Below, piece after piece: positions 8,738 through 44,150 of a stretch of 64,000 nucleotides of DNA. The notes under the pieces are model-generated. The model was not told where the DNA came from, made no database searches, and saw only the letters and a program-made list of their open reading frames with translations. Position 1 is the stretch's first letter, and each line of letters starts with the position of its first letter. The DNA comes from Streptococcus suis. GTDB lineage: Bacteria; Bacillota; Bacilli; Lactobacillales; Streptococcaceae. The stretch covers positions 1,860,001 to 1,924,000 of the forward strand of contig CP031970.1 in assembly GCA_022354845.1 (NCBI GenBank), read 5' to 3'. Made by a program: the position numbers and the translations under genes.

Positions 8738-9181
8738 TTATTTTCTAATTTTCTCCACTAACTCATTCAAAAATCTTGCAATAAGCTCTTGTTCGTCAAG
8801 ACTATAATTATCTAACAGTTCTTCATATGCTTCCAAAGTATGTGCATGATGATGCGCATGCTCCGCAGCAATAGGCTTTGCAGCCTCAGTCAGACTAAAA
8901 CGAACAATACGTGCATCCTTTGAATCCTTTACTGCTACTAATAAGCCCTGAGCAACCAAAGATTTAGTAGCCTTTGTAATAGCAGCTTGACTAACATTCA
9001 GCTGCTTTGCAATTTCAGTATTAGTATACGCAGCTTTTTCAATAAGCATCAAAATATGCTCCTGCGTATTCGTCAACTTCGCCGTACTTTGACAAGAACC
9101 AACCAATATTTCCAACTGGTTCTCAGAACTCAAAACTATATCATGCAAACACTTCTCAATATCTAATGCAAATTGGTTCAT
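8738..9181 (-). CDS. adcR: AdcR, MarR-family zinc-dependent repressor
   Basis: This 147-residue protein has a winged helix (about 30-100) and a histidine cluster (His108, 110-112, 114) matching the zinc site of AdcR. In streptococci the zinc-loaded dimer represses its own operon and other zinc genes. The ATG at 9181 has AAGGA seven bases upstream; an in-frame GTG six bases earlier is less likely. An AdcR-type operator lies 23 bp upstream. Confidence 0.92.
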   Translation of the reverse strand: MNQFALDIEKCLHDIVLSSENQLEILVGSCQSTAKLTNTQEHILMLIEKAAYTNTEIAKQLNVSQAAITKATKSLVAQGLLVAVKDSKDARIVRFSLTEAAKPIAAEHAHHHAHTLEAYEELLDNYSLDEQELIARFLNELVEKIRK

Positions 9182-9203
9182 AAGCACATCCTTAACCTTT
9201 TAA

Positions 9204-9215
9204 TTAACTCGTTAA
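9204..9215. promoter_or_regulatory. AdcR operator
   Basis: TTAACTCGTTAA is a palindrome (TTAAC-2-GTTAA) differing at one position from the known TTAACYRGTTAA AdcR box. It sits just upstream of adcR. Confidence 0.8.
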
Positions 9216-9531
9216 GTATATCATACTAATAAGAAAAAAACAAGAAAAAAATAAAAAATATTTAAAAGCTAACTTGTCAAAGTAAGTTCTAGTCTGACTC
9301 GAAAACTATAAACTAGACTGAGACGAAAAAATAAGGTAGAACTTGAGAACATTAAACTACATTTAGAATTAAAGAGTTTAGTTGAAAATGGTGAATAAAA
9401 ATCAGAAAGTTGTACATGTTTTACTCCGTCAGATTAACCAACTAGATAAAGAGATTAGTAATTTTTAGTAACTCAACTGAAAATTTTAAAACCTCAAAAC
9501 AAAAAGACAAGGCTTAGAAACCTTGTCTTTA
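9216..9531. other. Chromosomal spacer before the IME
   Basis: No convincing gene is seen; the longest frames are short and AT-rich without ribosome binding sites. Near its right end is the terminator-like hairpin at 9503-9530. Confidence 0.5.
9503..9530. terminator. Terminator next to the attachment site
   Basis: A 10-bp perfect stem AAAGACAAGG / CCTTGTCTTT with an 8-nt loop is flanked by A and T runs. It directly abuts the tRNA-like repeat at 9532, and may originally have terminated a gene that stood here before integration. Confidence 0.6.
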
Positions 9532-9548
9532 ATACTATACCGGCGGCC
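9532..9548. repeat. Left IME attachment repeat
   Basis: ATACTATACCGGCGGCC is identical to 20186-20202. It carries only the last 11 bases of tRNA-Leu, so it is the site left after integration, not a functional tRNA. Confidence 0.85.
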
Positions 9549-9642
9549 TACAAACTAGCGTTAAAATAAGTTAAAATAGATAACAAAAATGCGTTTAAAT
9601 CAAGATATTATCACTCGCTAGTTAGTATAAAAATTGGTAAAG

Positions 9643-9661
9643 TTGACCAACTATTGACCAA
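9643..9661. repeat. Paired TTGACCAA repeats, left end (candidate integrase arm sites)
   Basis: TTGACCAA occurs at 9643-9650 and 9654-9661, an 11-bp period. The same pair with the same period occurs near the right end (20126-20144). This suggests arm-type binding sites for the integrase or its excision factor. Confidence 0.55.
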
Positions 9662-9738
9662 GCTATTTTTCAATTTTAAAAAGAAAATTTTTCATTACTA
9701 AGTTACTTTTCTTAAATTTCATACAATTAGTTTAGTAC

Positions 9739-9871
9739 CGACCTCGACTTTTGAGGTCTATACCAATATGGCATATATTTTATTCCCAAAAGTTGTTGAA
9801 ATAGCGTAGTCTTTTCAATGAGTTTTGGGAATCCAAAAAATCTTCCTACTATATTAATAGTAAGAAGATTT
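9739..9871. other. Cluster of three hairpins in the IME left end
   Basis: The stretch holds GACCTC-7-GAGGTC (9740-9758), a 10-bp perfect inverted repeat ATTCCCAAAA/TTTTGGGAAT (9782-9791 and 9823-9832), and a terminator-like stem AATCTTC...GAAGATT followed by T's (9839-9871). The last probably terminates the minus-strand operon or insulates the element. The others could be a single-strand origin or a structured RNA. No credible gene is present. Confidence 0.45.
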
Positions 9872-15297: not shown

Positions 15298-16733
15298 TTA
15301 GATATCGTTTAAACTCACATCTAGGCTATATGATGAGAGCCTACCCTAGTGTAGTAACCCTGCTTCAATTACTTGGAGTAGGGCTACTAGTCACAGGGTT
15401 GATTGGTGAATGGTTAATTAGGAAAGCAGTTGAACTAGAGCTGATTATGGCTCCCAGTAAATGGGCATTCTATCTAATGATATTTGGTTCAGCTGTCTTG
15501 CTTCTTGTTAATGGTTCATTACTCTTGCATTTTCTGCATCGTGTTAAAGCAGCGGATTCATTTTCTCAATATCAACAATTAAGATTAATAGAGCGTCAAG
15601 CTCACAAAGCATTGAAAGATTCAGCAACAGCTAATCGCAAAGTCGGCAGCAAATTCATAGATGTTTCCAAAGCGCATGCGTGCTTCTCGAAGCAAAGCAG
15701 GCGCATTACTGTTACGATCAATAAATTAGCTGATCAAACTACTGATGATTTAGAAAAATTTGCGGATATGCTCTCATCTATTTTAGTGGGTAAAAACCGC
15801 TCATTGATTGTTCTTGACTATTGGATATCATTTGATAATACTGAATTTACCTATCTGCTAGATAGCATTGATGATGCACAAGCAAGACAGCTGAAACCTA
15901 AATGCATCACAGAATTAAAGCCAGCTAATGACTATGAAATAACAGTGGAAACAGGATTGACCTTTTCAATGGTTAAAAATATTCATTTACTACTGGTTGG
16001 CAATACTTCATCATCAAAGACCACTTTTCTAAAATCTATGCTAGCTCAAGTATTTATGTTTGATTCTGAAGTTGACTTAACAATATTTGATGTCAAATCC
16101 GAATTCAGTTCGTGGGACTTTTTACCTAAAGGTACTATTATTTCAGATAGTGACGAAATTCTAGCTTATTTTGAAACTTTACTTGATTTAGTTATTCAAC
16201 GTGAAAAAGAGATTGCTCAATTAGCTGCAAGGGATGATATAACTGGTGCTACATTTATCAATTTCGGTCAAGAAATGAGAATGAAACTCGTTATCATTGA
16301 AGAATATTCTGCAATGTTAAGTAGTATTACTGATGCCAAAAAGCGGAAAAGGGTTCAAGATCTAGTTTTATCCGTGGTATCTCGCTCACGTTCTAGTGGG
16401 GTCTATATGTGTATCTGTATGCAGCAACCACGTTCAGAACTACTTTCTACTGCTGTTAGGGACAATCTTGGTGTCCGTATATGTCTATCAAATGGAGCTA
16501 TTACCGACGAGCTTGCACGTATGGTTTTCGGAGAAGCTGATAATATTGAAAACCATGCCCCACGCTTTAGTGGCTACATCATGACCTCTGACGGTCAATT
16601 CTCTAAGCCAAGACGATTTTGGAACATTAACATGCACGAACATGGACTTGAAAAGATCAGTATTTTTGAAAAAGCTTATCTATACGGTATCAAGAAACGA
16701 AAATCATTAAAACAATCCACGTCTAACCCTTAA
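15294..16733 (+). CDS. FtsK/TcpA-like coupling protein of the IME
   Basis: This 479-residue protein has two N-terminal transmembrane helices (about 22-42 and 58-80) and a cytoplasmic FtsK/HerA ATPase domain. Walker A is atypical, GNTSSSKTT (about 236-244), with Ser in place of the usual Gly before Lys. Walker B is LVIIEEYS (about 331), and a later QQPRSE resembles the FtsK sensor region. Such proteins bring the relaxase-DNA complex to the helper's secretion channel. It sits directly upstream of the relaxase. Confidence 0.85.
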   Translation: MIRYRLNSHLGYMMRAYPSVVTLLQLLGVGLLVTGLIGEWLIRKAVELELIMAPSKWAFYLMIFGSAVLLLVNGSLLLHFLHRVKAADSFSQYQQLRLIERQAHKALKDSATANRKVGSKFIDVSKAHACFSKQSRRITVTINKLADQTTDDLEKFADMLSSILVGKNRSLIVLDYWISFDNTEFTYLLDSIDDAQARQLKPKCITELKPANDYEITVETGLTFSMVKNIHLLLVGNTSSSKTTFLKSMLAQVFMFDSEVDLTIFDVKSEFSSWDFLPKGTIISDSDEILAYFETLLDLVIQREKEIAQLAARDDITGATFINFGQEMRMKLVIIEEYSAMLSSITDAKKRKRVQDLVLSVVSRSRSSGVYMCICMQQPRSELLSTAVRDNLGVRICLSNGAITDELARMVFGEADNIENHAPRFSGYIMTSDGQFSKPRRFWNINMHEHGLEKISIFEKAYLYGIKKRKSLKQSTSNP

Positions 16734-16789
16734 AATTTGGAACATCATTTGAATCTGTGTTGTGCCAAATTTTGAACCCTATTTGATGA

Positions 16790-16881
16790 TTTTGGACGCC
16801 ACATAAATCTCCGTCAGTGGCGTCCAAAAAACAATCAAATCTATCCCAACAAAAATGACACATTATAATCATTTTGTGTCA
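16790..16881. repeat. Inverted repeats before the relaxase gene: candidate oriT
   Basis: A perfect 13-bp stem TTTTGGACGCCAC / GTGGCGTCCAAAA with a 14-nt loop (16790-16829) is followed by TGACACA / TGTGTCA (16856-16862 and 16875-16881). The pair lies in the 174-bp gap between the coupling and relaxase genes, where nick sites of Rep-type relaxases are often found. A terminator role for the first hairpin cannot be excluded. Confidence 0.5.
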
Positions 16882-16907
16882 AAAATAATTCACTACGGAG
16901 GTCAAAT

Positions 16908-30761: not shown

Positions 30762-32346
30762 GCCCACCTCCCAAAAGAAGACGCATCGATTCAATCAAGG
30801 CTTTATTCTCTTCACTTTCTGAAAAATCGTCAATCAAAGATAAGAGCGTTTGTTCTTGTTGAACTAATTGTTCATTGATCTTAAGGAGATTGGTATTCAC
30901 CTCAACCAAATCAACCGGTTCTTCTTCCTCAAAGGTATCGACATAACGAGGGATATTTAAGTTAAAGTCATTTTCTTGGATCTCCTCAAAACTTGCAACA
31001 TGAGCATATCTTTCAATATCTTCTCGTTTTTTGTAGGTAGAAACAATTTTATCAATATGTTCATCCAGCAGGACATTTTTATTTTTTTGTTTTTCAAAAT
31101 CTTGAGAAGCATCGATAAACAAGACATCACGACGAGAACGGTTTTTCTTCAAAATAATAACCGTTGTCGGAATACTCGTTCCAAAAAAGATATTGGCCGG
31201 CAATCCAATGACCGCATCAATGGCTCCCATTTCTAAAAGGGCTTGACGGATGGTTCCTTCCGCGGCTCCTCTAAAGAGAACGCCATGCGGCAGGACAATC
31301 CCCATTGTTCCCGATTCTTTCAAATGGTAAAAACCGTGAAGGAGAAAGGCAAAGTCCGCTTTAGATTTAGGCGCTAATTTTCCAAAACGCTCGAAACGAG
31401 GGTCAGAGAGAAACTTATCTGCCGCTGACCATTTCGCAGAGTAAGGAGGGTTCATGACCACAGAATCAAACTGATAAGGCTCTTCTGAGGGCCAATCGGC
31501 GTCTAAAGTGTCCCCGTTATTCAGGTTCATGCGTTCTTTATCTACTCCATGAAGAATTAAGTTCATACGTGCTAAGTTAAAGGTCGTCGTATTTAACTCT
31601 TGGCCATGATAATGAACTTGATTTGGATTGATGAGATAGCGACGGATATTAAGCATCAAAGAACCTGATCCCATCGCAGGATCGTAAATATGAAAAGGCG
31701 CACGGGTTTCTTGCCCGATCGACGTAATTTCTGACATGATGCGTGAAACAGCTTGAGGCGTATAAAACTCGCCTGCTTTTTTTCCTGCACCTGCCGCAAA
31801 CATCCCGATTAAATACTCATAAGCGTCCCCAATCACATCCCCATTGTGTTCAAATAAATCAATCTCATCTAAGGCACGCAAGACCTCAGTAATCGTCACA
31901 TTACGTTGTTGTGCATTTGAGCCTAATTTTGTGGAGTTTAAATCAATATCCGCAAACAAACCACTAAATTCTTCTCCTTGACGTTCCAACTCATTAAAAC
32001 CTGCTTGTAAGTCGGTCAAGTTAAATTCATAGTTATCAGCTTTGATGCGGTAGTGATAAAACAATTGATCGGGTTGGATAAAGTAGCCTTGTTTGGGTTG
32101 GATATTTTCGATTAAATCGTCTTTGTCTTCTTGGTACCACTCCATGAATCCTGCATACTGAGTGGAACGTTCTGGGAAGGTATCTGTTTTGCCATTTTCT
32201 TGTTCATAAACTTCTCTCAGCTGCGCATCAGACAAGTACTTATAGAAAATTAACCCTAGTAAGTAGTTTTTGTACTCACTTGCATCCATCTTCCCACGTA
32301 AGATATCCGCAGAAGCCCATAGTTGTTGATTTAAACCTGTCGCCAT
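30751..32346 (-). CDS. hsdM: Type I restriction adenine methyltransferase HsdM
   Basis: This 531-residue protein has an N-terminal HsdM helical domain and an N6-adenine methylase domain with GEFYTPQAVSRIM, DPAMGSGSLML (SAM binding, about 214-225) and the catalytic NPPYSAKW. It methylates the target and forms the complex with HsdS. Its ATG overlaps the stop of hsdR (TAATG). Confidence 0.95.
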   Translation of the reverse strand: MATGLNQQLWASADILRGKMDASEYKNYLLGLIFYKYLSDAQLREVYEQENGKTDTFPERSTQYAGFMEWYQEDKDDLIENIQPKQGYFIQPDQLFYHYRIKADNYEFNLTDLQAGFNELERQGEEFSGLFADIDLNSTKLGSNAQQRNVTITEVLRALDEIDLFEHNGDVIGDAYEYLIGMFAAGAGKKAGEFYTPQAVSRIMSEITSIGQETRAPFHIYDPAMGSGSLMLNIRRYLINPNQVHYHGQELNTTTFNLARMNLILHGVDKERMNLNNGDTLDADWPSEEPYQFDSVVMNPPYSAKWSAADKFLSDPRFERFGKLAPKSKADFAFLLHGFYHLKESGTMGIVLPHGVLFRGAAEGTIRQALLEMGAIDAVIGLPANIFFGTSIPTTVIILKKNRSRRDVLFIDASQDFEKQKNKNVLLDEHIDKIVSTYKKREDIERYAHVASFEEIQENDFNLNIPRYVDTFEEEEPVDLVEVNTNLLKINEQLVQQEQTLLSLIDDFSESEENKALIESMRLLLGGGHDE

Positions 32347-35300
32347 TATAATTCTTCTTTCCATTTTTGAAGTTGTTCAAATTTTTGTTGTAGTCGTTCT
32401 TCTAAAACTTTTGTTCTTCTTCTGTATTTTTCACCCGTTTTGGCTTCAAACTCTTCTTTACTGAGGGTCATCGAATCCAGTAAATGGGTTAAATAAGGGA
32501 TTGTTTTCTTATCGCCTTGATACTCATTCATTGCAGACTGTAAAAAGTCGAAGGATAATCCAAATTCTTCAGCTTCTTTTTGAAGTTGTCTTTGAATTTC
32601 ATTTTGGATCGATGTCTCTTTTAATTGAGCTACATCAATCTCTTCAACAGTATTGACGAGTTGATCTTTCAAGGTGTGATACATCTTTTGGATTTGAGGA
32701 TCCTTTTGTTGGATTTCTTTTTCAAATTTTTCAACGGCGCCTGCTTCGTTTAATTGGATCGCTTTCAAAAGTTGATTAATATAAAAACTATCCACGACGT
32801 CTTTATGTGTCGCATTGAGCTGCGAAGAAAAAGCAATCTCTTGTAAAAGATTCTCGAAGTCCTCCTCAGAATGCTCCTCATCCTCGAGCATTTCTTTAAT
32901 CTGCGCTTTAACGTTTTCCATTTTACCTTGATATTGTTGCAACTGCTCCACCACTTCTGAAAATGCTTCAAATTCCTCTTCGTATTGATCATAGCTTCGG
33001 AGCGCTTTATAACTCTTTTCTAGCTTTTGATAAGCACTCACTTGTGCAATCATCGTTTTAAGATCGTTGGGATTATCCGATAGCTCGGCTTCGCTTTGTT
33101 TATAAAGTGTTGAACATTCGATAAATTCTTTTTTGACTTCTTCATATTCTCTTGGAATCAGTTGATCAAAGTTTTGATTTTCATTTGAGAATAGACGAAA
33201 CGTGTTTTTCACATTCTCTTTCATGGTGAAGGGTTTTCTAAAAGAGACAATCAACCCAGAATCTTTTCCTGTATAAATACGGTTGGTTCTTGAGAACGCT
33301 TGAAGGAGCTTTTGATAGTTCATTTCTCGATCAATATATAAGGTTTGAATCGTTGGAGAATCAAAGCCTGTCAATAAACGATCGACAACAATGACAAAAT
33401 CTAGCCACTGACCATCCGATTGATATTGCTTTTCCTTACGGGCCAACCGTTTATTAATATTTTGATTGTAGAGTTTCTCATCTTGATAAGGAGAAGCATC
33501 AAACTGTTTCGCATACTCTTTCATGATCTCTGCTAATTCATCGTCTTGTTCATTTTTTTCTAATTGATCCGGATTGGTTGAGAAGGTAATAGCTACTCTT
33601 GGGAAATCTTTATCAATCAGTTGATGACGTTCATCAAATTGTCGCCCATTCAAGAGTGTCCCATTATCTTTCATTTCCTTTAAAATCCGGTAAATATGTT
33701 TGGCTTGGGCAATCGAGTGAGTGGTAAGAATGGCTGACATCGTAGGAAAACCATTCTTTACCTTGAACTTTTTGACCACACTTCTCCGATTAAAGATTTT
33801 TTGTAACATGGTACGAATATGTTCATCTGTTTCATAAAGTTTCGTAGGCAACAATTTTTCTTGTTGGAGGGCATCGTCTGGCAACTTTCCTTTATTGAGT
33901 TGGGTGACAATCACCTCTTGATCCTCTTCTGAAATCAGTGAATGATACTCGACTTGAAAGCCTAACACAGCCCCATCATCCATGGCATTTTTGGTTGTAT
34001 AGGAGTGAAGGAGTGGCCCGTACTGCTGGCTCGTTGTTCTAGCAAAAGTTCCATTTTCTTGCTTTTTATTTTCTTCAAAAATAGGCGTCCCCGTTAATCC
34101 AAACCAGGTTGAATTGGGTAATATTTTCTTAATCCGCTTCATTTCCTCATCACTAACCGCACGATGAGCCTCATCAACAATAAAAACAATATGTTCTTGC
34201 CGTAGCTTTTCAAATTGATTCGAGCCTTTTTCTTCACTCTCTTGTTGGGCACTCCGCATAGCCGCAGAGAGTTTTTGAATCGTGGTCACTAAAATCGTAT
34301 TATTATTTTTTGATGAAAGGAGGTTTCGAGCCAGCTGTTTTTGATTTTTGATCCCAACAATCAAAGTATTGGCTACCGAATTTCCGGTCGTTTGTCCGGT
34401 ATGATATTCCGAGGCAAACTTAGTAAACTCATCCTGCGTTTGAGCATCTAAGTCCGTTCTATCAACAACCATGACCGTACGATCGACACCGATCGCATTT
34501 TGTGCTAATAATTTCGTTGCGACAAAACTGGTAATGGTCTTTCCTGAACCTGTCGCATGCCAAATGAATCCTCCTTCATGCTGTGCCGCTTTTTTACGAA
34601 TCTTACGAATAGCATGAATTTGGTAAGGCCTTAAAGCCATGAGGAATTTTTTATTTTTTTGATCATCGACGAGAATGGTATACTGGCTAATCAATTCATG
34701 GGCATCGGGTATCCGCAAAACTGTACGAGTAAAATCAAACAAATCGGAAACCGTTTGATTGTCTTCAGTCCGCCAATTAAATAAAAACTTCTTCATCTGA
34801 GCATAGGCTTCAGCGGTATCTTCACTAGGTCTTGCAAAGTATCGGGTATCGACTTTATTTGAAATCACCATGATTTGAGTAGTTGCGTAAATCCCTTTAA
34901 AAAATCCATCTTCTGCATAACGCTGAATTTGATAATAAGCTTGCATGAAACCGTCTTTAGCGGACTCTTTTTTGAGCTCAATATGAATGATTGGGAGCCC
35001 ATTAATCAGCAAGCTCACATCTCCACGATCTACTCTAGAGGAATCTGGGACCACTTGGTGAACTACCTCATAAGAAGAAGTTCCTCCTGAGATATCCTTA
35101 TTTCTAAAGGCTTCTAAAGTCACTTTTTTCCCATTTTCTCGCTCTAATAAAACTTGAGCCACCCCGTTTTCTCCTCTAAGCCATTGAGAAGCTAAAAAAG
35201 GCGTTCCGGTCAAACGTGAAAACTCGACTTTGACTTGCTTGAATTCTTTGTCCGTTAATAGTTGCTCTTCCAATACTGCTAAATTTATTCGGTTCAAATG

Positions 35301-35423
35301 GCCTCTAAAGTTTTGCCAAAGTGCTTCTTCCGACTTCAAGTCCGGACGATAAGTCCACTGATTTTCTTTCTCACTTAAGATCTGTATGAACTGGTTTTCA
35401 ATCATTTGTTCCGAATGACTCAT
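32346..35423 (-). CDS. hsdR: Type I restriction endonuclease/translocase HsdR
   Basis: This 1,025-residue protein starts with a PD-(D/E)xK nuclease region (LLINGLPIIHIELKK, about 155-170), then an SF2 helicase core with Walker A HATGSGKT (about 285-292), DEAH box VDEAHRA and later motifs (LTGTP, VVDRLLTGFDSP, QAFSRTNR), and a helical C-terminus. It cuts unmethylated DNA after translocation. The start has GAGGGGAAT upstream. The operon order is hsdR-hsdM-hsdS. Confidence 0.95.
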   Translation of the reverse strand: MSHSEQMIENQFIQILSEKENQWTYRPDLKSEEALWQNFRGHLNRINLAVLEEQLLTDKEFKQVKVEFSRLTGTPFLASQWLRGENGVAQVLLERENGKKVTLEAFRNKDISGGTSSYEVVHQVVPDSSRVDRGDVSLLINGLPIIHIELKKESAKDGFMQAYYQIQRYAEDGFFKGIYATTQIMVISNKVDTRYFARPSEDTAEAYAQMKKFLFNWRTEDNQTVSDLFDFTRTVLRIPDAHELISQYTILVDDQKNKKFLMALRPYQIHAIRKIRKKAAQHEGGFIWHATGSGKTITSFVATKLLAQNAIGVDRTVMVVDRTDLDAQTQDEFTKFASEYHTGQTTGNSVANTLIVGIKNQKQLARNLLSSKNNNTILVTTIQKLSAAMRSAQQESEEKGSNQFEKLRQEHIVFIVDEAHRAVSDEEMKRIKKILPNSTWFGLTGTPIFEENKKQENGTFARTTSQQYGPLLHSYTTKNAMDDGAVLGFQVEYHSLISEEDQEVIVTQLNKGKLPDDALQQEKLLPTKLYETDEHIRTMLQKIFNRRSVVKKFKVKNGFPTMSAILTTHSIAQAKHIYRILKEMKDNGTLLNGRQFDERHQLIDKDFPRVAITFSTNPDQLEKNEQDDELAEIMKEYAKQFDASPYQDEKLYNQNINKRLARKEKQYQSDGQWLDFVIVVDRLLTGFDSPTIQTLYIDREMNYQKLLQAFSRTNRIYTGKDSGLIVSFRKPFTMKENVKNTFRLFSNENQNFDQLIPREYEEVKKEFIECSTLYKQSEAELSDNPNDLKTMIAQVSAYQKLEKSYKALRSYDQYEEEFEAFSEVVEQLQQYQGKMENVKAQIKEMLEDEEHSEEDFENLLQEIAFSSQLNATHKDVVDSFYINQLLKAIQLNEAGAVEKFEKEIQQKDPQIQKMYHTLKDQLVNTVEEIDVAQLKETSIQNEIQRQLQKEAEEFGLSFDFLQSAMNEYQGDKKTIPYLTHLLDSMTLSKEEFEAKTGEKYRRRTKVLEERLQQKFEQLQKWKEEL

Positions 35424-35810: not shown

Positions 35811-36352
35811 AAAAATATATAAGTCGTGCTATCCTAAGCTTAAACCACTAAGAATTAGAAAGCGCACGACCTATATGACTTATAATAGCACACTTACAAA
35901 AGTTTTTGTTTATTTACTGACAAGCATTGAAGCGATTTATCAAACAAGCGTTCCACTCGAAATACAAAATCGAAAGAACGTCCATCTTGCAACATCTGAC
36001 TGTTTAGTGATTACTTGTTACCTGTGGGGAGTGCTTCATTTTAGTGAAACACTTAAAGCAAAGCACCAATTGGCTCAAAGTCTATTCCCTAATTTTCTAG
36101 AATATTCTCGCTTTGTTCGTCGTTGTAATGCACTCTTACCGAGTATTCAACTCATTCGCCAAGCTCTCGTCTTTAAAGAAGTTGAAGGGATTGATGTGTC
36201 TATTATTGACAGCTTTCCCATTCCTTTGTGTCAGCCGATTCGTAATTTTAGAAGCAAAGTTTTGGGCGACTATGCAAATATTGGCTACAATGCTACCAAA
36301 GGTCAGTACTTTTATGGCTGTAAATGTCATGCTTTAGTCAGTGAATCAGGCT
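35811..36352 (+). mobile_element. IS982-family remnant
   Basis: The left end carries inverted TATAAGTCGTGCT / GCGCACGACCTATA segments before the transposase start. The element is cut at about 36352 by IS5-derived sequence. The left boundary is approximate. Confidence 0.65.
35875..36352 (+). pseudogene. IS982-family transposase, 3'-truncated
   Basis: About 159 residues remain, including LATSDCLVITCYLWG and the first catalytic aspartate region IDVSIIDSFPIPLC. The second half is lost at the junction with the IS5 fragment, so it should be inactive. Confidence 0.75.
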
Positions 36353-36553
36353 AAAATGTTTAATAAAATCATTTCGAAAATACGTGTCCGTATTGAACAT
36401 GTATTTGGCTTTGTTGAAAATTCAATGCATGGTTCTAGTTTACGTTCTATTGGATTCGATCGAGCTGTTTTAAATACTGACCTTACAAATCTGACTTATA
36501 ACTTATTGAGGTACGAACAAGTTAAACGTTTAAATCTCAAAACATGGAGGTAA
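36353..36553 (+). pseudogene. IS5-family transposase 3' fragment, inverted
   Basis: It encodes the C-terminal part (MFNKIISKIRVRIEHVFGF...) with the last catalytic Glu region, identical to the end of copy 1. No start or DDE core remains. Confidence 0.8.
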
Positions 36554-36689
36554 TCTGTCTAAAATAAGAATAAACAGTCAAGTGGCGTCTGTAACATAAA
36601 GAAAAACACAGTAGACTATGCTTAGTTTTCTGTGTTTTTTTCTAATTTCATTTAGAGGTGAATTAATTGGTAGTTATTAGAGGTGCCCT

Positions 36690-37171
36690 TTAATCAATTC
36701 ATTTTCGTCTTTTGGATTACGTTGTTTAGGCGCCTCTATGAATGTTGCATCAACAATCTGTCCTTTATGAGCGATCATCCCTTGTGATTCAAGTTTTTCT
36801 TGAAAGGCAGAAAAAAGCCAGTTTCCTCTATTAGATTTTGATAGCTGATTTCTAAAGTTCCAGATAGTCTTTGCGTCTGGTACCTTGTCATCAATCTTAA
36901 GGAATCTTCTAAACGAAATCCGGTCAATCATTTGATATTCCATTGCATCATCAGATAGATTGTATAAGCGTTGTAAAATTAGAATTTTCAACATCAAAAC
37001 AAGGTCATAGGGCGGTCTACCACCATGAGATTTGTTTTTTAAATCATACTTAAAAATCCGGTTAAGAGTTGGGCGAAAACACTCGAAATCAACCACTTTT
37101 TCTAGCCGCTCAAGAGGGTCTCCTTTTAAACTTAATTTTTCAAGATAGTCGCTATCTCCAAATAAATTCAT
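36690..37171 (-). pseudogene. IS5-family transposase 5' fragment
   Basis: About 160 residues from the ATG at 37171 (after GAGGT) match copy 1, without its nonsense codon (YDLKNKSHGG is intact), and end at ENELIK, where the sequence joins the inverted fragment. Inactive. Confidence 0.8.
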
Positions 37172-37392
37172 CTTCAATACCTCGTTAGCTTATTTTTAAT
37201 CTATTATACCTCTTTTCATACGTTTTTAGAGGTGCCCTTATGAATAATATTCTTAACAAAGAGAGTAAATTTTTCCGAAAAATAGATATTTTTAGGAAAG
37301 ATTGTGATACTATCTTAGCTAAAAAAATACAACTACTATTTATTTACGGTATAATAGCTATATAAAATTAACTAAATTTCAGGAGAGAAAAT

Positions 37393-37760: not shown

Positions 37761-38285
37761 TTACTCCAATTCCTCTACCTTTTCAATCCTTTTTTTAACT
37801 TTATTGTTAAGATTTGAAAATTTATGTACTAGCTCTCTTCCTAATATCGCTATTTCTTTCGCCTCGATGAGAATTTCTTCAAAACTCATACCTTTTCTAT
37901 AGTGACCCATTCTATGTACCACTGCATTTCTTCTCACGCGGAATACACTCAATAAATCATAACATTTTCTATAATCTACATGGGACTTATAGTGATTCGT
38001 TTTCTTGATTATCGGTAAACCTTGACTACTATCAGCTAGTCTTCTGATTAATAAATTGCGTATCTCTGAATATTCATCTTGTTCATTACTATTCATAAAC
38101 TCGGCAAGTAAAGAACTTTTTATATATAATTTATCCGAGTCCTCTAAATCTAATTTCAATAGAAGGCTACTTACTCTATCTTCAAGCAATGCAAACTCGA
38201 TTGTAATTGCTTCAAAATAATTTTCATTATTTATTGAATTCTCCATGCTATGTTTTAATGCGTCTACATATTCTGTATGATTCAT
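37761..38285 (-). CDS. HEPN-like helical protein of the Sau3AI locus
   Basis: This 174-residue, all-helical acidic protein contains RRNAVVH (Arg119-Asn120...His124), the Rx4-6H pattern of HEPN ribonucleases, within a helix-rich C-terminal part. The N-terminal EAITIEFALLEDRVSSLL is similar to other HEPN-like proteins. HEPN RNases are common toxins in defence loci. It is third in a minus-strand operon, 10 bp after the 38296-39090 gene. The assignment is by motif only. Confidence 0.6.
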   Translation of the reverse strand: MNHTEYVDALKHSMENSINNENYFEAITIEFALLEDRVSSLLLKLDLEDSDKLYIKSSLLAEFMNSNEQDEYSEIRNLLIRRLADSSQGLPIIKKTNHYKSHVDYRKCYDLLSVFRVRRNAVVHRMGHYRKGMSFEEILIEAKEIAILGRELVHKFSNLNNKVKKRIEKVEELE

Positions 38286-38295
38286 AACACACTCC

Positions 38296-39090
38296 TTAAT
38301 TTAAGTTACTAGAAAAAATTGATAATCTTTCTAAATATGGTCTCTTTGCAATTGTAATATTTAGAGGACATTCACTTTTTACTTCCTCTGACGTATAAAC
38401 AATTTTAGGACCTTTTCCATCTACTTCATTAAGATTCAATAAACTTAGATATAAACGCCCACTTTGTAGTTTAACATTGAGATTATTAAATCTATAAACT
38501 CCATCTTGATTTCCCCTTAAAGAATTAAAAGTATTTTTCATCCATATATATAAGTTAGAAATCCTTTCTTGATTTAACTCACCAATATATCCGTTATTTG
38601 TCAAATTAGGAAACAGGTTAAAGGGATTCTGAATAAAGTGAAGCAAATCTCTCTTAGGAATAATTTTTACCTCAATCCTTGCTATATTTTGTATTGATAA
38701 ATCCCAAGTGTTATTTCGAGTAAAAATCCACTGAAAGCAGAAGTATTCAGTGTTCTTATAGTAACTCTCATTATCGATTGCCCAACCTTCTCGATAATTG
38801 CCATTCTGTAAACTTGCCAATTCCATTGCAAATGTTGGGAGCCCGTCACTTCTACCATCTATAACAATATAATCCGTTGCTGCTTTTGCATCAATCGTAT
38901 GAAAATTATTATCACCAAATACTTGAAGTGATTTCATTAGAAAATCGGATCCTTGCAGTTGCTCCTCTCGTGAATTTGTAAATCTTATTTCAGCATCTGG
39001 TAACTCTCTTTCAAGAAATTCTTTCAGAATAGGGAGTAACGCTCTTTCTTTTTGTGAATCATTAAATCTTTGTGTCATATTATTCATCAT
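38296..39090 (-). CDS. Putative nuclease-fold protein co-encoded with the Sau3AI-like enzyme
   Basis: This protein of about 264 residues is not recognised. Near its N-terminus it has GSDFLMKSLQVFGDNNFHTIDAKAA, where D...IDAK looks like a PD-(D/E)xK nuclease core (ID-x-K), followed by beta-rich sequence. The ATG at 39090 lies 2 bp after the stop of the Sau3AI-like gene; longer in-frame starts overlap that gene. It could be a second nuclease or an accessory subunit. Confidence 0.55.
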   Translation of the reverse strand: MMNNMTQRFNDSQKERALLPILKEFLERELPDAEIRFTNSREEQLQGSDFLMKSLQVFGDNNFHTIDAKAATDYIVIDGRSDGLPTFAMELASLQNGNYREGWAIDNESYYKNTEYFCFQWIFTRNNTWDLSIQNIARIEVKIIPKRDLLHFIQNPFNLFPNLTNNGYIGELNQERISNLYIWMKNTFNSLRGNQDGVYRFNNLNVKLQSGRLYLSLLNLNEVDGKGPKIVYTSEEVKSECPLNITIAKRPYLERLSIFSSNLN

Positions 39091-39092
39091 AA

Positions 39093-40583
39093 CTAATCCC
39101 ATTTCCCTTCTAGCACTTCTTTTAGGAATTGTTTTGGAATCCAAAACGAATGTTTTGTAATATGTCGTCCGTCGGGTAATTCATCAGTATCAGATAACTT
39201 TCCTTTACCGACAAACCCTCCAGGGGTTATCTCATATAATGTATTTTGAGCATGAATTTTGGTAAAGATAACTTTATTAATTCTACTTTGCGGAAAATTT
39301 GTTGATACCTTATTTCCATTCTGAGTTAATTGAACTCCTTCAGCTAGAATTCTTTTTGTTTCCTGCCAAACTCGTTTTACTTCATCTATTTGTCTATCAG
39401 GAAATCCCCAGAACTTTATCCTATCCAATATAAATGTTTTTGGATTTGTCTCTTTGAAAACAACAAATAAAAATCTTTTGTTACAGATTTCTTGGAATGG
39501 ATGAGATTCCTCCCACTCATCATTAGCCACTAGATTTTTAAAATTATATGTTTTAAATGGTGAATCCTCTTTCGGAAGACCATTTTTATCAACACGAATG
39601 ACACGCAAATTCATGTTAGCTTTTTGAAACTCTTGTGTCTTATCTATGTCACCTGTAAGGCCAATTATTTTCCGAATCAGTGAACTGTTTTTCCCTTTGG
39701 CTTTTGGATTAATATCAAATGTTTTATATAATTCTGCTTCTGTCCAACCTTGGTACTTTAAAATTTTATCAGATATTATCTCTGTAAAAGTTTTCTTTTC
39801 CCCTTTAGCGGTTGCGACTACACTCTCTTGGTCCTTCTGATTAAAAATTTTGTTATTAATCAGATAAGTCATGTAACTAGATTTTAGTTCCCATGCTCGT
39901 TGTTTTGCGGGTTCATCACTATACGGTTGACTTCGAAAATCTTTGCCTTTCCCAGCTCCTTTAGTACAGGTAGAAAGGTAATTACCATCTGATTCTGATA
40001 ATTCGTGAGCCTTACCTTGTTTAATTTTATCAGTGATTCTTTTATAATCCTCCAGTATTACATCCATGTCCTCAGTGAACCATTCAAAAAGAAATACCTT
40101 TTCAATAATGTAATCAGCCATCGTTTGACTAGGGATTAGTCCATTATAAAATAGTAATAGGATTTTTTGACATTTTTCCCAGAGATGGGTCGAATAAAAA
40201 TCATCTAAATTTTCTTCCATATAATTTAGAATTGTAAGGACTAGTCTTTCTTTAGCGCTAATACTGCCGTTTTTATTAACTTTAAAAGGGGTTACTTTTA
40301 GCTCAATCCCAACTTTTTCAAAGTCAGCAAGTCTATCACTATTTGGATTATAACCATAAAAATATTTCTCAATATAATTTCCATACTGCCCTTTTGACTT
40401 CATGCTGATTTCTTTAAAATCTTTTTCAGAAATAGTATTTGTTTGAAAATCATCATAACTTTTATATACAGAATTTTGATACTTATCAATAATATCAATA
40501 AATTTTTCGCCAACTATACCTTCTGTATACTTTAAAATACTATCTACATTGGCATCATCGTAATCAAAAAGTGAAAATTCCAT
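39093..40583 (-). CDS. Sau3AI/MutH-family type II restriction endonuclease (GATC)
   Basis: This 496-residue protein has the size of Sau3AI (about 490) and its duplicated MutH-like layout. The active site is seen as D87...E94-L-K96 (ADFEKVGIELKVTPF). The C-terminal half looks like the second, catalytically inactive MutH fold used as an allosteric DNA-binding domain. It should cut unmethylated GATC. It diverges from its methyltransferase. Confidence 0.85.
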   Translation of the reverse strand: MEFSLFDYDDANVDSILKYTEGIVGEKFIDIIDKYQNSVYKSYDDFQTNTISEKDFKEISMKSKGQYGNYIEKYFYGYNPNSDRLADFEKVGIELKVTPFKVNKNGSISAKERLVLTILNYMEENLDDFYSTHLWEKCQKILLLFYNGLIPSQTMADYIIEKVFLFEWFTEDMDVILEDYKRITDKIKQGKAHELSESDGNYLSTCTKGAGKGKDFRSQPYSDEPAKQRAWELKSSYMTYLINNKIFNQKDQESVVATAKGEKKTFTEIISDKILKYQGWTEAELYKTFDINPKAKGKNSSLIRKIIGLTGDIDKTQEFQKANMNLRVIRVDKNGLPKEDSPFKTYNFKNLVANDEWEESHPFQEICNKRFLFVVFKETNPKTFILDRIKFWGFPDRQIDEVKRVWQETKRILAEGVQLTQNGNKVSTNFPQSRINKVIFTKIHAQNTLYEITPGGFVGKGKLSDTDELPDGRHITKHSFWIPKQFLKEVLEGKWD

Positions 40584-40611
40584 AAATCACCACCAAATCT
40601 ATATTATAGAT

Positions 40612-40659
40612 ATTATACCAAATGTTTTACTTGATCGATTGTCATAAATGCGATATAAT
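40612..40659. promoter_or_regulatory. Divergent promoters of the Sau3AI-like locus, with a GATC in the -35
   Basis: For the methyltransferase, TTGATC (40631-40636), 17 bp and TATAAT (40654-40659). The -35 hexamer itself includes GATC. For the endonuclease, TATAAT is read on the minus strand at 40612-40617. Methylation of this GATC could feed back on expression. Confidence 0.5.
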
Positions 40660-40688
40660 GGTTATATTATTAAATTTAGGAGTTATTA

Positions 40689-41951
40689 ATGAAAGTTCTA
40701 GAACTGTTCGCTGGAGTTGGGGGGTTCCGTATCGGTCTTGAAAATGCCGATAAAAATTACTTCCAAACAAAATGGGCAAATCAATGGGAACCCTCACGTA
40801 AATCTCAAGACGCTTTTGAAGTATATGACTATCATTTTCCAGATAGTGAAAACATCAATATTAGTATTTCTGATATTAGCGATGAGAGATTTGCTGAAAT
40901 GGATGCGGATATGATTGTCGGTGGTTTTCCATGTCAAGATTATTCAGTGGCCCGTAGTAAAAAAAATGAACAAGGTATTGAGGGTAAAAAAGGAGTACTT
41001 TTTTGGGAAATTATTCGGGCTACTCGTATCATTAAACCGAAATATTTAGTTTTGGAAAATGTAGACCGCTTATTAAAAGCTCCATCTAAACAACGTGGAC
41101 GTGACTTCGCAATCATGCTAACTGCTTTTAATAACCTTGGTTATTCTGTAGAATGGCGTGTGATTAATGCTGCTGAATATGGCCGTAGTCAACGTCGTCG
41201 ACGTGTCTTTTTCTTTGTCTATCGAAATGATACCGACTTTGCTAAAAGTATCGATAATAAATATGAAACAAATGATCTCGTATTTGATGACAATAGATAC
41301 GATGACTACATCTATCATACAGGTTTATTTGCTACCCAATTTCCTATCAAACATTCTCCAGTAAAAAAACGACAGGTCTTTTATGAATTAGCAAATGATA
41401 TTGTTGAAGTCTCAGATAACTTTACAGGTACCGTTTGGAATACAGGTGTTATGCGACATGGAAAATATTATTCTATTGACACTGAACCTGATTATGATGG
41501 AAATCCTATTACACTAGGGGAAATTTTACAAGTTGAGAAAGACGTTCCAGAAAAATACTTTTTGACAGACCAATCTAAATTAGAGAAATTTCAATATTTG
41601 AGAGGACCAAAAAGAATTGAGAGAACTTCTGCTGATGGTCATTCATACATCTATTCTGAAGGGGGGATGTCACCGACAGATGATCTCAATCTTCCTGGCC
41701 GTACCATGTTAACTTCAGAAGGAACAGTTAACAGGTCCACTCACTTCCTTAAAGTTAATAATCGTTACCGTCTCATTACACCAGTAGAGGCTGAAAGATT
41801 ACAAGACTTCCCTGATAATTGGACTGCTAAGAAAAAGCTCTCTGATGGTTCAATTGTTGAGGTATCAGATAAGATGCGTATGTTTTTTATGGGAAATGCA
41901 CTTGTTACTGAAATAGTGAGAAAAATTGGAGAATATATTAGACAATGGTAA
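40689..41951 (+). CDS. DNA cytosine-5 methyltransferase, M.Sau3AI-like
   Basis: This 420-residue protein has motif I LELFAGVGGFRIGLE, motif IV GGFPCQDYS with catalytic Cys82, motif VI LVLENVDRLL, motif VIII QRRRRVFF and motif X FFMGNALV near the end. It probably protects GATC at cytosine against the neighbouring endonuclease. AGGAG lies before the ATG. Its stop overlaps the next gene's start. Confidence 0.92.
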   Translation: MKVLELFAGVGGFRIGLENADKNYFQTKWANQWEPSRKSQDAFEVYDYHFPDSENINISISDISDERFAEMDADMIVGGFPCQDYSVARSKKNEQGIEGKKGVLFWEIIRATRIIKPKYLVLENVDRLLKAPSKQRGRDFAIMLTAFNNLGYSVEWRVINAAEYGRSQRRRRVFFFVYRNDTDFAKSIDNKYETNDLVFDDNRYDDYIYHTGLFATQFPIKHSPVKKRQVFYELANDIVEVSDNFTGTVWNTGVMRHGKYYSIDTEPDYDGNPITLGEILQVEKDVPEKYFLTDQSKLEKFQYLRGPKRIERTSADGHSYIYSEGGMSPTDDLNLPGRTMLTSEGTVNRSTHFLKVNNRYRLITPVEAERLQDFPDNWTAKKKLSDGSIVEVSDKMRMFFMGNALVTEIVRKIGEYIRQW

Positions 41952-43129
41952 ATAATAATAGTATGGAACGTAAAGACAAATGGTTAAATATCTTTGATAA
42001 GCTTTCCGGGTCTGTAGGCAAAGCCAATATTTCATTAAACAATTATCTAGAAGAGTTCCTGAAATCTGAAAGTTCCAGTAGAATAATTGGTAAACAAAAC
42101 AGAATTAAATCCGATGTGAGTTTCGCTGATAAGCTCATAAGGAGTGATTGTATTAGTAACTGGACTTACATTGATAATGACGATGAAGCAAATATGAAAA
42201 CTCTTAGCAAAAGCCTTCATGACTATATTGGATTTAGAATTACTACATTATTCTTCAATGAAGAGGAAAAATTTGCTAATGCCTTAATTGACTTTTTAAC
42301 AAAAAAACAAAACGTTGAAATCCCTGAAACCCAAAAAAACCCAAAAAATTTGCAAGTAAATGGTCACTCAATAATGAAATTCCAGGGTTTTATCACACCA
42401 GAAAATGACACACCTCTAAAGTTTGGTTTTGAAATACAAATTAAATCTTCAATTCATAATTTGTGGGGTGAAGTAGAACACAGTTCAATTTACAAACCTA
42501 GTCAGTTTGATTTCAGAATTAATCAAAAGAAAGAAAGTGTTGAAAACATTTGGGAAACTCTCACTAGTTCTGATAAACAACTATTTCATCTAAATAAAGA
42601 AACATATAAAAAAGAAGATTTATTAAAACAGTTATTTACAACCTACCTTGAAGAAATTAACTTCTTAGAACCATTGAACTCTCATTACTATTATTCAATC
42701 TTCTTCAATGTTTTCATTTACAGAAATATAAATACTTTAGAAGATTTAGTATCCCAATTAATTGTTAAAAAAAATATCGAATCAAAACTCCAATATTCAA
42801 TTTCAAATCTAAAACAAAATTACACATACTCAAGTTTAAAAGAAATATTATCAGGTATACTTTACCAAAACGAAATGGAAACTATTAAAAAAATTTTTGA
42901 TTATTGCTTTAATATAAAGGAAACTGAATTTCTAGATACTTTAATATTTTCCATAATAAAAAATATGGGTTTGGATGAGACAGATGATCCAGAATTATTT
43001 GGTTCTGATATCGATGAGGATGAAGATGAACAAAACGATTTAATTACAGAGGATAACGCTGAATTTTTGGGAATGTTATCGAAGTTAGGTTTTAAAACAG
43101 AAAGGTTTGAAAAAAATGTCAACAAGTAA
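41945..43129 (+). CDS. RelA/SpoT-domain nucleotidyltransferase-like protein in the defence locus
   Basis: This 394-residue protein has RelA/SpoT synthetase motifs: R53-x-K55-S, DYIGFR (93-98), FEIQIKS (162-168), then HNLWGEVEHSSIYK (171-184), the counterpart of the EVQIRT...AEH...YK region. There is no HD hydrolase, TGS or ACT domain. The C-terminal half is a helical repeat with an acidic tail. Small RelA/SpoT proteins include (p)ppGpp synthetases and toxins that modify tRNA or NTPs. The ATG overlaps the methyltransferase stop, so the two are one operon. Confidence 0.8.
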   Translation: MVNNNSMERKDKWLNIFDKLSGSVGKANISLNNYLEEFLKSESSSRIIGKQNRIKSDVSFADKLIRSDCISNWTYIDNDDEANMKTLSKSLHDYIGFRITTLFFNEEEKFANALIDFLTKKQNVEIPETQKNPKNLQVNGHSIMKFQGFITPENDTPLKFGFEIQIKSSIHNLWGEVEHSSIYKPSQFDFRINQKKESVENIWETLTSSDKQLFHLNKETYKKEDLLKQLFTTYLEEINFLEPLNSHYYYSIFFNVFIYRNINTLEDLVSQLIVKKNIESKLQYSISNLKQNYTYSSLKEILSGILYQNEMETIKKIFDYCFNIKETEFLDTLIFSIIKNMGLDETDDPELFGSDIDEDEDEQNDLITEDNAEFLGMLSKLGFKTERFEKNVNK

Positions 43130-44150
43130 GATAAATCAAATCCATTCAGAATTAGATTGGATTGAATCACAAAATATTACGTTGGAAAAATTAATTCGCT
43201 CAACAAAAGTTGATGTTTTCGATTCTATAAATTTCACTGGTTACCAGCGTGAAATTAATGAAAAACATGTTTTAAAAATTGTAAAATATATCACTGATGA
43301 ATTTAGACAAGGCAACTTTCTTTTCCCTAGTCCAATTATCTGTTCTAGACGAGATGGCGATTCAAACTTATTCATTGTAGATGGTCAGCATAGGGTTAGT
43401 GCATTTAAAAATATCCAAGACAACAAACCTGAGCTATTTGAGATGATTAACGACTTTGAACTTAATATTATCGTTTTAGAAAAACCAACAATAAAACTCG
43501 AAGTAGATACATTTATTACCATTAATAAAACTTCTAAAAAAGTTGACACATCGTTAGCCCTCATTGCTAAAACTTTACATTCTGGCCTAGACTCGAGTGA
43601 CCAAACAGCAAAAAAACAATTTATTTTGGTAGAAACTGCTCGAAAAATGGATACCACTGATGGTTCACATTTCTTAAATAATATTGCCTGGGAAGGTACA
43701 CCTCGATCAACTGGAAAAACAATCTCTCTCAATACATTTGTCAGAGCTTACATGCCAATTGTAAATTATTTAGTAAAGCATAATCTTATTGATTTAAGTG
43801 AAAACTCAGACTTAGTTAAATACATAAATCTTTGTTTCAACATAATTAATTCCATTTGGGATTCATTTGAGAAAAAATGGCCTCAACTTTTCAATGAAGG
43901 AAAGAATAGCATTGTTCAAGGAACTATTGGTTCAAGTGCAATTATTAAGTTCCTGATTAACTATTTAAACAAGGATGAATCAAGAGGTACAGTTGATGAT
44001 AAAATTCTTATAAAAGAAATAAAAACTGCAATCGAAAGGATAAATGACAATTATGAAAACTGGGTGCCGAATGGTACGTATTCAAATTATTCTTCTGGAG
44101 CTGGACATACAATTATATCCAAAATTTTAATGGATAGTATTGATAAATAA
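43116..44150 (+). CDS. DGQHR-domain protein (DndB/ParB-like fold)
   Basis: This 344-residue protein has the signature VDGQHRVSAF (DGQHR at residues 89-93) and a preceding YQREINEKHVLKIVKYI, as in DGQHR proteins such as the phosphorothioation regulator DndB. The fold is ParB/Srx-like and may bind nucleotides or DNA. The start overlaps the RelA/SpoT-like gene by 14 bp, so the two are translationally coupled. Its role here is unknown; regulator or sensor are possibilities. Confidence 0.8.
   Translation: MSTSKINQIHSELDWIESQNITLEKLIRSTKVDVFDSINFTGYQREINEKHVLKIVKYITDEFRQGNFLFPSPIICSRRDGDSNLFIVDGQHRVSAFKNIQDNKPELFEMINDFELNIIVLEKPTIKLEVDTFITINKTSKKVDTSLALIAKTLHSGLDSSDQTAKKQFILVETARKMDTTDGSHFLNNIAWEGTPRSTGKTISLNTFVRAYMPIVNYLVKHNLIDLSENSDLVKYINLCFNIINSIWDSFEKKWPQLFNEGKNSIVQGTIGSSAIIKFLINYLNKDESRGTVDDKILIKEIKTAIERINDNYENWVPNGTYSNYSSGAGHTIISKILMDSIDK

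Follow-up and report, generated by a model that had tools for sequence, protein, structure and literature searches.

The genes considered here lie in a 64,000-nucleotide stretch of Streptococcus suis DNA (the window; contig CP031970.1, positions 1,860,001 to 1,924,000), wherein a Sau3AI-type restriction-modification (R-M) system is accompanied by additional genes at both of its ends (Table 1). A sequence-only reading of the window had proposed that six genes form a single, integrated defence locus. All six open reading frames are indeed open as that reading placed them, and the four identities it offered, a Sau3AI-like endonuclease, a 5-methylcytosine methyltransferase, a RelA/SpoT protein and a DGQHR protein, are each borne out by a score above a curated profile cut-off (300 for NF040973, 22 for PF00145, 27 for PF04607 and 58.85 for TIGR03187). 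The endonuclease and methyltransferase genes are divergent and separated by a 105-bp intergenic region. The endonuclease, which carries the E94 and K96 residues singled out in the reading, passes its curated cut-off and is adjoined by the C5 methyltransferase (further matches: TIGR00675, 219.7 bits; PADLOC MTase_II, 701 bits), an arrangement that defines a Sau3AI type II R-M system. From this family membership, the system would be expected to cleave and methylate GATC. On the plus strand, the RelA-like gene start overlaps the methyltransferase gene end by 7 nucleotides and the TTG start of the DGQHR gene overlaps the RelA-like gene end by 23 nucleotides, as had been noted; an alternative ATG for DGQHR lies at 43116. 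The locus does contain extra genes beyond those of a plain type II system, and scans of Pfam, NCBIfam and PADLOC returned no named system for it. Novelty was gauged against Pfam, NCBIfam 2026, PADLOC 2023 and the open-access literature.

Table 1. Features of the Sau3AI locus in the window, and defence genes found at the gene ends of other streptococcal Sau3AI loci.
Feature	Location	Strand	Size and evidence
RelA/SpoT-synthetase-fold protein, first module gene	41945..43129	+	394 aa; PF04607 RelA_SpoT 34.5 bits
DGQHR-domain protein, second module gene	43107..44150	+	347 aa from TTG; TIGR03187 76.9 bits
C5-cytosine DNA methyltransferase of Sau3AI-type system	40689..41951	+	420 aa; PF00145 DNA_methylase 211.9 bits
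Promoter-like site toward methyltransferase	40631..40659	+	TTGATC-N17-TATAAT; GATC inside -35 hexamer
Sau3AI-family type II restriction endonuclease	39093..40583	-	496 aa; NF040973 536 bits, PADLOC REase_II 767 bits
Orphan protein, downstream of endonuclease	38296..39144	-	282 aa from TTG; D...DxK pattern by eye
Orphan protein	37761..38285	-	174 aa; HEPN-like motif RNAVVH (RxxxxH) at 119-124
HamB-like helicase	L116		198 bits
PbeA-like helicase	L113		208 bits; PADLOC match partial
PDC-M33 A/B/C	L115		410, 215, 171 bits
Ppl-like ATPase	L112		107 bits; PADLOC match partial
SIR2 and HerA	L125		175, 195 bits
DpnI	L122:11984-12748		284 bits

The RelA-like and DGQHR genes constitute a separate two-gene module and are not part of one six-gene system. 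The pair is present at 11 loci: the window, L016 (in genome G159), L004, L005, L013, L014, L015, L131, L136, L137 and L148. These represent about nine lineages, with L004/L005 and L013/L014 being near-identical, and such recurrent adjacency exceeds the chance association that the sequence-only reading had raised as a concern. No Sau3AI homologue is found in the sequence around the last nine of these loci, and 16 of the 18 streptococcal Sau3AI loci lack the pair (the 18 being the window, 16 other matched loci and that of G159, which lies outside the 247-genome sample). The proposal of a single integrated locus is therefore not upheld. In G159, the gene order is endonuclease, divergent methyltransferase, RelA-like and DGQHR, and the two orphan genes are absent.

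Relatives of the RelA-like protein are scarce in the genome searches, which used samples of 395, 247, 398, 82, 246 and 246 genomes. The RelA-like query matched 3 of 395 genomes of the order (the window's own, G159 and G279, wherein the match is an ordinary short synthetase). The DGQHR query matched 3 of 398 genomes of the phylum: the window's own; G904, which has a 499-residue RelA-like gene overlapping DGQHR by 11 nucleotides; and G599, which has a weak DGQHR match and no RelA. Two Lactococcus plasmids carry the pair without Sau3AI, and viral contigs were reached through DGQHR (L136, L137) or through RelA (L148). A scan of genome contigs for RelA-like genes, from which 80 of 129 confirmed loci were kept and whose two patterns miss divergent relatives, revealed an adjoining DGQHR gene at four loci (L013 to L016).

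The pairing also appears to be specific. A DGQHR profile (A6) scored the RelA-linked proteins of all 11 loci at 199 to 520 bits, among them five (L005, L014, L136, L137 and L148) from outside the profile, and it scored eight other DGQHR proteins (L112, L132, L012, L143, L142, L135, L139 and L138) at 19 to 61 bits. No RelA gene lies in the sequence covered around any of these eight, that of L135 being short. At 10 loci, the spacing of the two genes ranges from a 29-nucleotide overlap to a 10-nucleotide gap. At L015, wherein the RelA-like gene is truncated (312 residues, with repeats at the end) and DGQHR is whole, they are 204 nucleotides apart. Pairwise identities among the RelA-like proteins correlate with those among the DGQHR proteins (r = 0.97 for 28 pairs; r = 0.92 for the 21 pairs left when the near-duplicate is removed).

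PF04607 is the sole Pfam match of the RelA-like protein, which points to a synthetase domain without a hydrolase domain, and the fold match agrees. Its donor-site residues R53, K55, S59, K63 and R66 have the spacing of R64, K66, S70, K74 and R77 in FaRel2, and D93 and E163 are also present; R53, K55, K63 and R66 are invariant across eight loci. The protein lacks the G-loop tyrosine, having NGHSIMK at positions 139 to 145. Two HMMER alignments place the canonical tyrosine differently, and in neither of these sequence alignments is that position paired with a tyrosine; some relatives carry a tyrosine three residues further on (NGHKIYK). Replacement of the G-loop tyrosine impairs FaRel2, according to the accessible part of PMC11782079. 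The protein thus resembles the toxic small alarmone synthetases (toxSAS) FaRel2, PhRel2 and CapRel in having a RelA/SpoT synthetase fold without a hydrolase domain, the donor-residue spacing of FaRel2 and a two-gene organisation with an adjoining partner. It differs from them in the missing tyrosine, in its long C-terminal region and in its partner, which is DGQHR and not pZFD, Tis1 or Panacea. A long RelA-like family (mostly about 440 to 520 residues; L017 to L092) with no DGQHR in the retrieved flanks is common on Clostridia and Tissierellia contigs; 14 aligned members also lack the G-loop tyrosine, and housekeeping-looking neighbours occur at part of these loci.

Membership of the second protein in the DGQHR family is indicated by the TIGR03187 score and by all three family motifs, QR at 47-48, DGQHR at 92-96 and FxxxN at 136-140, which are invariant in eight loci. 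It also matches DndB (PF14072) at 40 bits and, weakly, GmrSD_N. The available text of PMC4619093 defines the same three motifs and links the family with GmrS and with the ParB/Srx fold; we take the fold from this literature because our own structure model is too poor. By the equivalog cut-offs it is neither DndB nor DpdB (TIGR03233, 14.7 against a cut-off of 328; NF041060, 35.2 against 300). The protein shares the DGQHR model and motifs with the DndB/DpdB/DGQHR family of the Dnd and Dpd systems, whereas its scores are well short of the two equivalog thresholds and its partner is RelA-like.

The Sau3AI locus serves as a site at which different gene sets are found. Among the 247 same-genus genomes, 17 matched NF040973, 14 of them above the cut-off. 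A search with the six window proteins recovered the methyltransferase at 15 of the 16 other loci and found RelA, both orphan proteins and any close DGQHR to be absent from all 16; a profile search likewise detected no RelA in any of them. The pair is consequently present in 2 of the 18 streptococcal loci. Known defence genes occupy the gene ends at several of the others (Table 1), and the cassettes of L118, L119 and L126 were recognised by eye from their resemblance to those of L115, L116 and L113. No defence gene was identified in the cassettes of L114, L117, L121, L123 and L124 (L117 encodes a HATPase protein and, in addition, a second homologue of the C5 methyltransferase), none is evident in L120, and only a remnant exists in L127. 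The window locus is thus like other Sau3AI type II systems in its divergent endonuclease and C5 methyltransferase, both over curated cut-offs, and differs in having strain-variable accessory cassettes at both gene ends. A comparable exchange of defence elements at fixed chromosomal sites of S. suis is described by Okura et al. 2017 (PMC5398294), although the site detailed in the part of that study available is between rpiA and trmE, whereas here the points of exchange are where the Sau3AI gene and the methyltransferase gene end (3′).

Several of these loci show further rearrangement. In L122, DpnI adjoins a Sau3AI-type system with an endonuclease gene broken into two frames. In L125, an open reading frame resembling, by eye, an IS30-like transposase (8792-9820) splits the endonuclease gene, and the intact methyltransferase is followed by SIR2-HerA. 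The island of L112, the closest sister of the window, contains a distant DGQHR gene (15831-16883; 61 bits) and no RelA.

Alignments with the sister loci break off shortly ahead of the methyltransferase stop. The window matches L112 over 39093-41930, beginning at the endonuclease stop and ending 21 bases short of the methyltransferase stop; beyond this, just two pieces of 80 and 69 bases match. For the other streptococcal carrier (L007), alignment with its sister L116 ends 15 bases short of the methyltransferase stop and resumes from 13570. In the methyltransferase tree, the window groups with L112 and L007 with L116 (97% identity in each case) with moderate support (94/97 and 93/88, neither fork reaching the starred level). 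In the endonuclease tree, the window again groups with L112, and L007 belongs to a clade of seven rows that includes L116; this tree covers 12 of the 18 loci, the six omitted being L122, L125, L126 and L127 (broken, weak or remnant) and L123 and L124 (excessively divergent). Tests named after the tree was seen reject a single clade of the window and L007 (p-AU of 2e-52 for the methyltransferase and 7e-45 for the endonuclease). Because neither tree makes the window and L007 sisters, the slot was probably filled twice, though the pattern may also reflect recurrent loss, or a fixed cassette under which the restriction core was exchanged. In both carriers, the cassette is co-oriented with the methyltransferase; at 13 of the 15 other methyltransferase-bearing loci, the first listed gene there opposes it (the exceptions are L114 and L121).

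The promoter-like site upstream of the methyltransferase carries the system's own target. TTGATC-N17-TATAAT precedes the methyltransferase gene at every one of the 17 streptococcal loci with such a gene; at 15 of them the intergenic region contains a single GATC, and L117 and L126 have further GATC sites in the upstream stretch examined. The 64,000 bases of the window contain 146 GATC sites. The same promoter arrangement is found at two of the three plasmid loci from other genera (L149, L151); at the third (L150), the genes converge and the examined stretch lacks GATC. The sequence-only reading had the two genes diverge from a shared promoter: the divergent intergenic region and a promoter-like site toward the methyltransferase are there, and sharing of that promoter with the endonuclease is a supposition. 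Methylation feedback is a known kind of control in R-M promoters, and the references of PMC3874152 include studies of CfrBI and LlaDII, reportedly on this subject. The conserved GATC in the -35 hexamer suggests methylation feedback on the methyltransferase promoter, and since that promoter carries the target in its -35 box, expression of the downstream RelA-DGQHR pair may follow methylation state as well.

On the minus strand, each orphan gene has the window genome as its sole match among 246 order genomes, with no plasmid match. Neither occurs at any other RelA-DGQHR locus or at any of the other 17 streptococcal Sau3AI loci. The 174-residue protein had been labelled HEPN. HEPN RNases carry an RX4-6H motif, and R119 and H124 are present as named, yet the protein matched no family in Pfam, NCBIfam or PADLOC at E 0.1, and its best Protein Data Bank (PDB) sequence match is a haemagglutinin (E 0.15). 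The 282-residue protein (possible ATG starts at 39084-39099), which had been called a second nuclease, gave two Pfam rows far below cut-off, neither of them a nuclease, none in NCBIfam or PADLOC, and a best PDB match of E 0.54. With no family match and no relatives found, both labels are motif readings only.

We propose a composite interpretation, to which we assign about an even chance, wherein the locus is an ordinary Sau3AI-type R-M core with separately acquired cassettes behind the 3′ ends of both genes, and RelA-DGQHR is a toxSAS-like defence or toxin-antitoxin unit of effector and regulator. The RelA-like protein would be the effector, a predicted ATP-dependent pyrophosphokinase with an unusual acceptor site that acts like a toxic small alarmone synthetase. 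DGQHR, a DndB relative, would be the partner that restrains it, senses invasion through nucleotides or DNA, or does both. In the window, the pair is coupled to the methyltransferase gene, such that its expression might track methylation state. Toxicity, a phage trigger, methylation control and co-transcription with the methyltransferase are likewise predictions of this interpretation. A defence role is argued because the pair sits where sister loci carry known defence genes. Several observations weigh against the proposal. No DGQHR was detected by profile in the retrieved flanks of 76 of the 80 genome-contig RelA-like loci, and frequent neighbours of the DGQHR-less genes look like housekeeping genes; toxicity of this RelA branch is therefore not a given. 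DGQHR itself is absent from the toxSAS antitoxin families described in the accessible portions of the literature, its predicted structure is poor (predicted local distance difference test score, 59.9), shared descent by itself can yield correlated identities, and the roles of effector and regulator could be reversed.

An unlikely but substantial alternative is that the pair is a mobile-element addiction (toxin-antitoxin) unit or a physiological regulatory module that has no defence role of its own and was carried into defence-rich sites. Its presence on Lactococcus plasmids and in viral contigs fits this view, as does the L015 open reading frame listing, which shows no restriction gene beside the pair. 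It sits less well with the two streptococci that carry the pair where their sisters hold known defence genes, with the LlaJI-type system downstream in L004, and with the type I-like and McrBC-like genes recognised by eye near the L013 and L131 pairs. Somewhat more doubtful is a reversal of roles, wherein DGQHR is the effector (a ParB/Srx-type NTPase or nuclease) and answers to a nucleotide signal that the RelA-like protein synthesises or degrades. NTPase and nuclease activities are said of GmrS-like ParB/Srx proteins in the available text of PMC4619093, the RelA-like protein lacks the tyrosine that FaRel2 needs for full activity (PMC11782079, in part), and related RelA-like proteins persist without DGQHR. 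The L015 locus, with its truncated RelA-like gene beside a whole DGQHR gene, is easier to read as a lost toxin than as a lost signal maker, but this is a single locus, a thin point, and an assembly error is possible there.

The original idea of one integrated six-gene defence system, with the extra genes as a backup arm of Sau3AI restriction, now seems very improbable. Compact divergent operons with overlapping genes favour it, and the promoter GATC could tie RelA-DGQHR expression to methylation, but the distributions of the pair and of the minus-strand genes across Sau3AI loci, given above, speak against it, as do the nine module loci without Sau3AI. A backup growth-arrest role for RelA-DGQHR is possible; co-localised, exchangeable defence units fit the pattern at least as well. 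A bolder version of the effector-regulator proposal, which we consider tentative and rather unlikely, is a new two-gene conflict system in which a pyrophosphokinase with an acceptor other than a (p)ppGpp precursor is gated by a ParB/Srx-like DGQHR sensor; in streptococci it would have been captured twice behind the methyltransferase of a Sau3AI system, such that lost or inhibited methylation increases its expression and couples growth arrest to failed modification. If so, DGQHR/DndB relatives would be an unlisted partner class for RelA/SpoT-type effectors, an alarmone-synthetase branch with a different acceptor would be suggested, and the locus would offer a case of restriction genes anchoring interchangeable defence cassettes, one of which may be under methylation-sensitive control.

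Other gene combinations were noted near Sau3AI systems. A PLD/SNF2 helicase and a ParB-like protein are paired beside Sau3AI in two genera (L113:3401-7134, L126:3564-7324 and L151:8659-11479), another ParB-like and enzyme pair in the same type of slot; the ParB-like motif in L113 is DGNRR. A Lactiplantibacillus plasmid has a ParB-family and SNF2 pair beyond Sau3AI that resembles the L113 cassette by annotation. In the window itself, the Sau3AI locus is separated from a type I restriction R subunit (32346-35423) by open reading frames that read by eye as transposase fragments (35875-37177).

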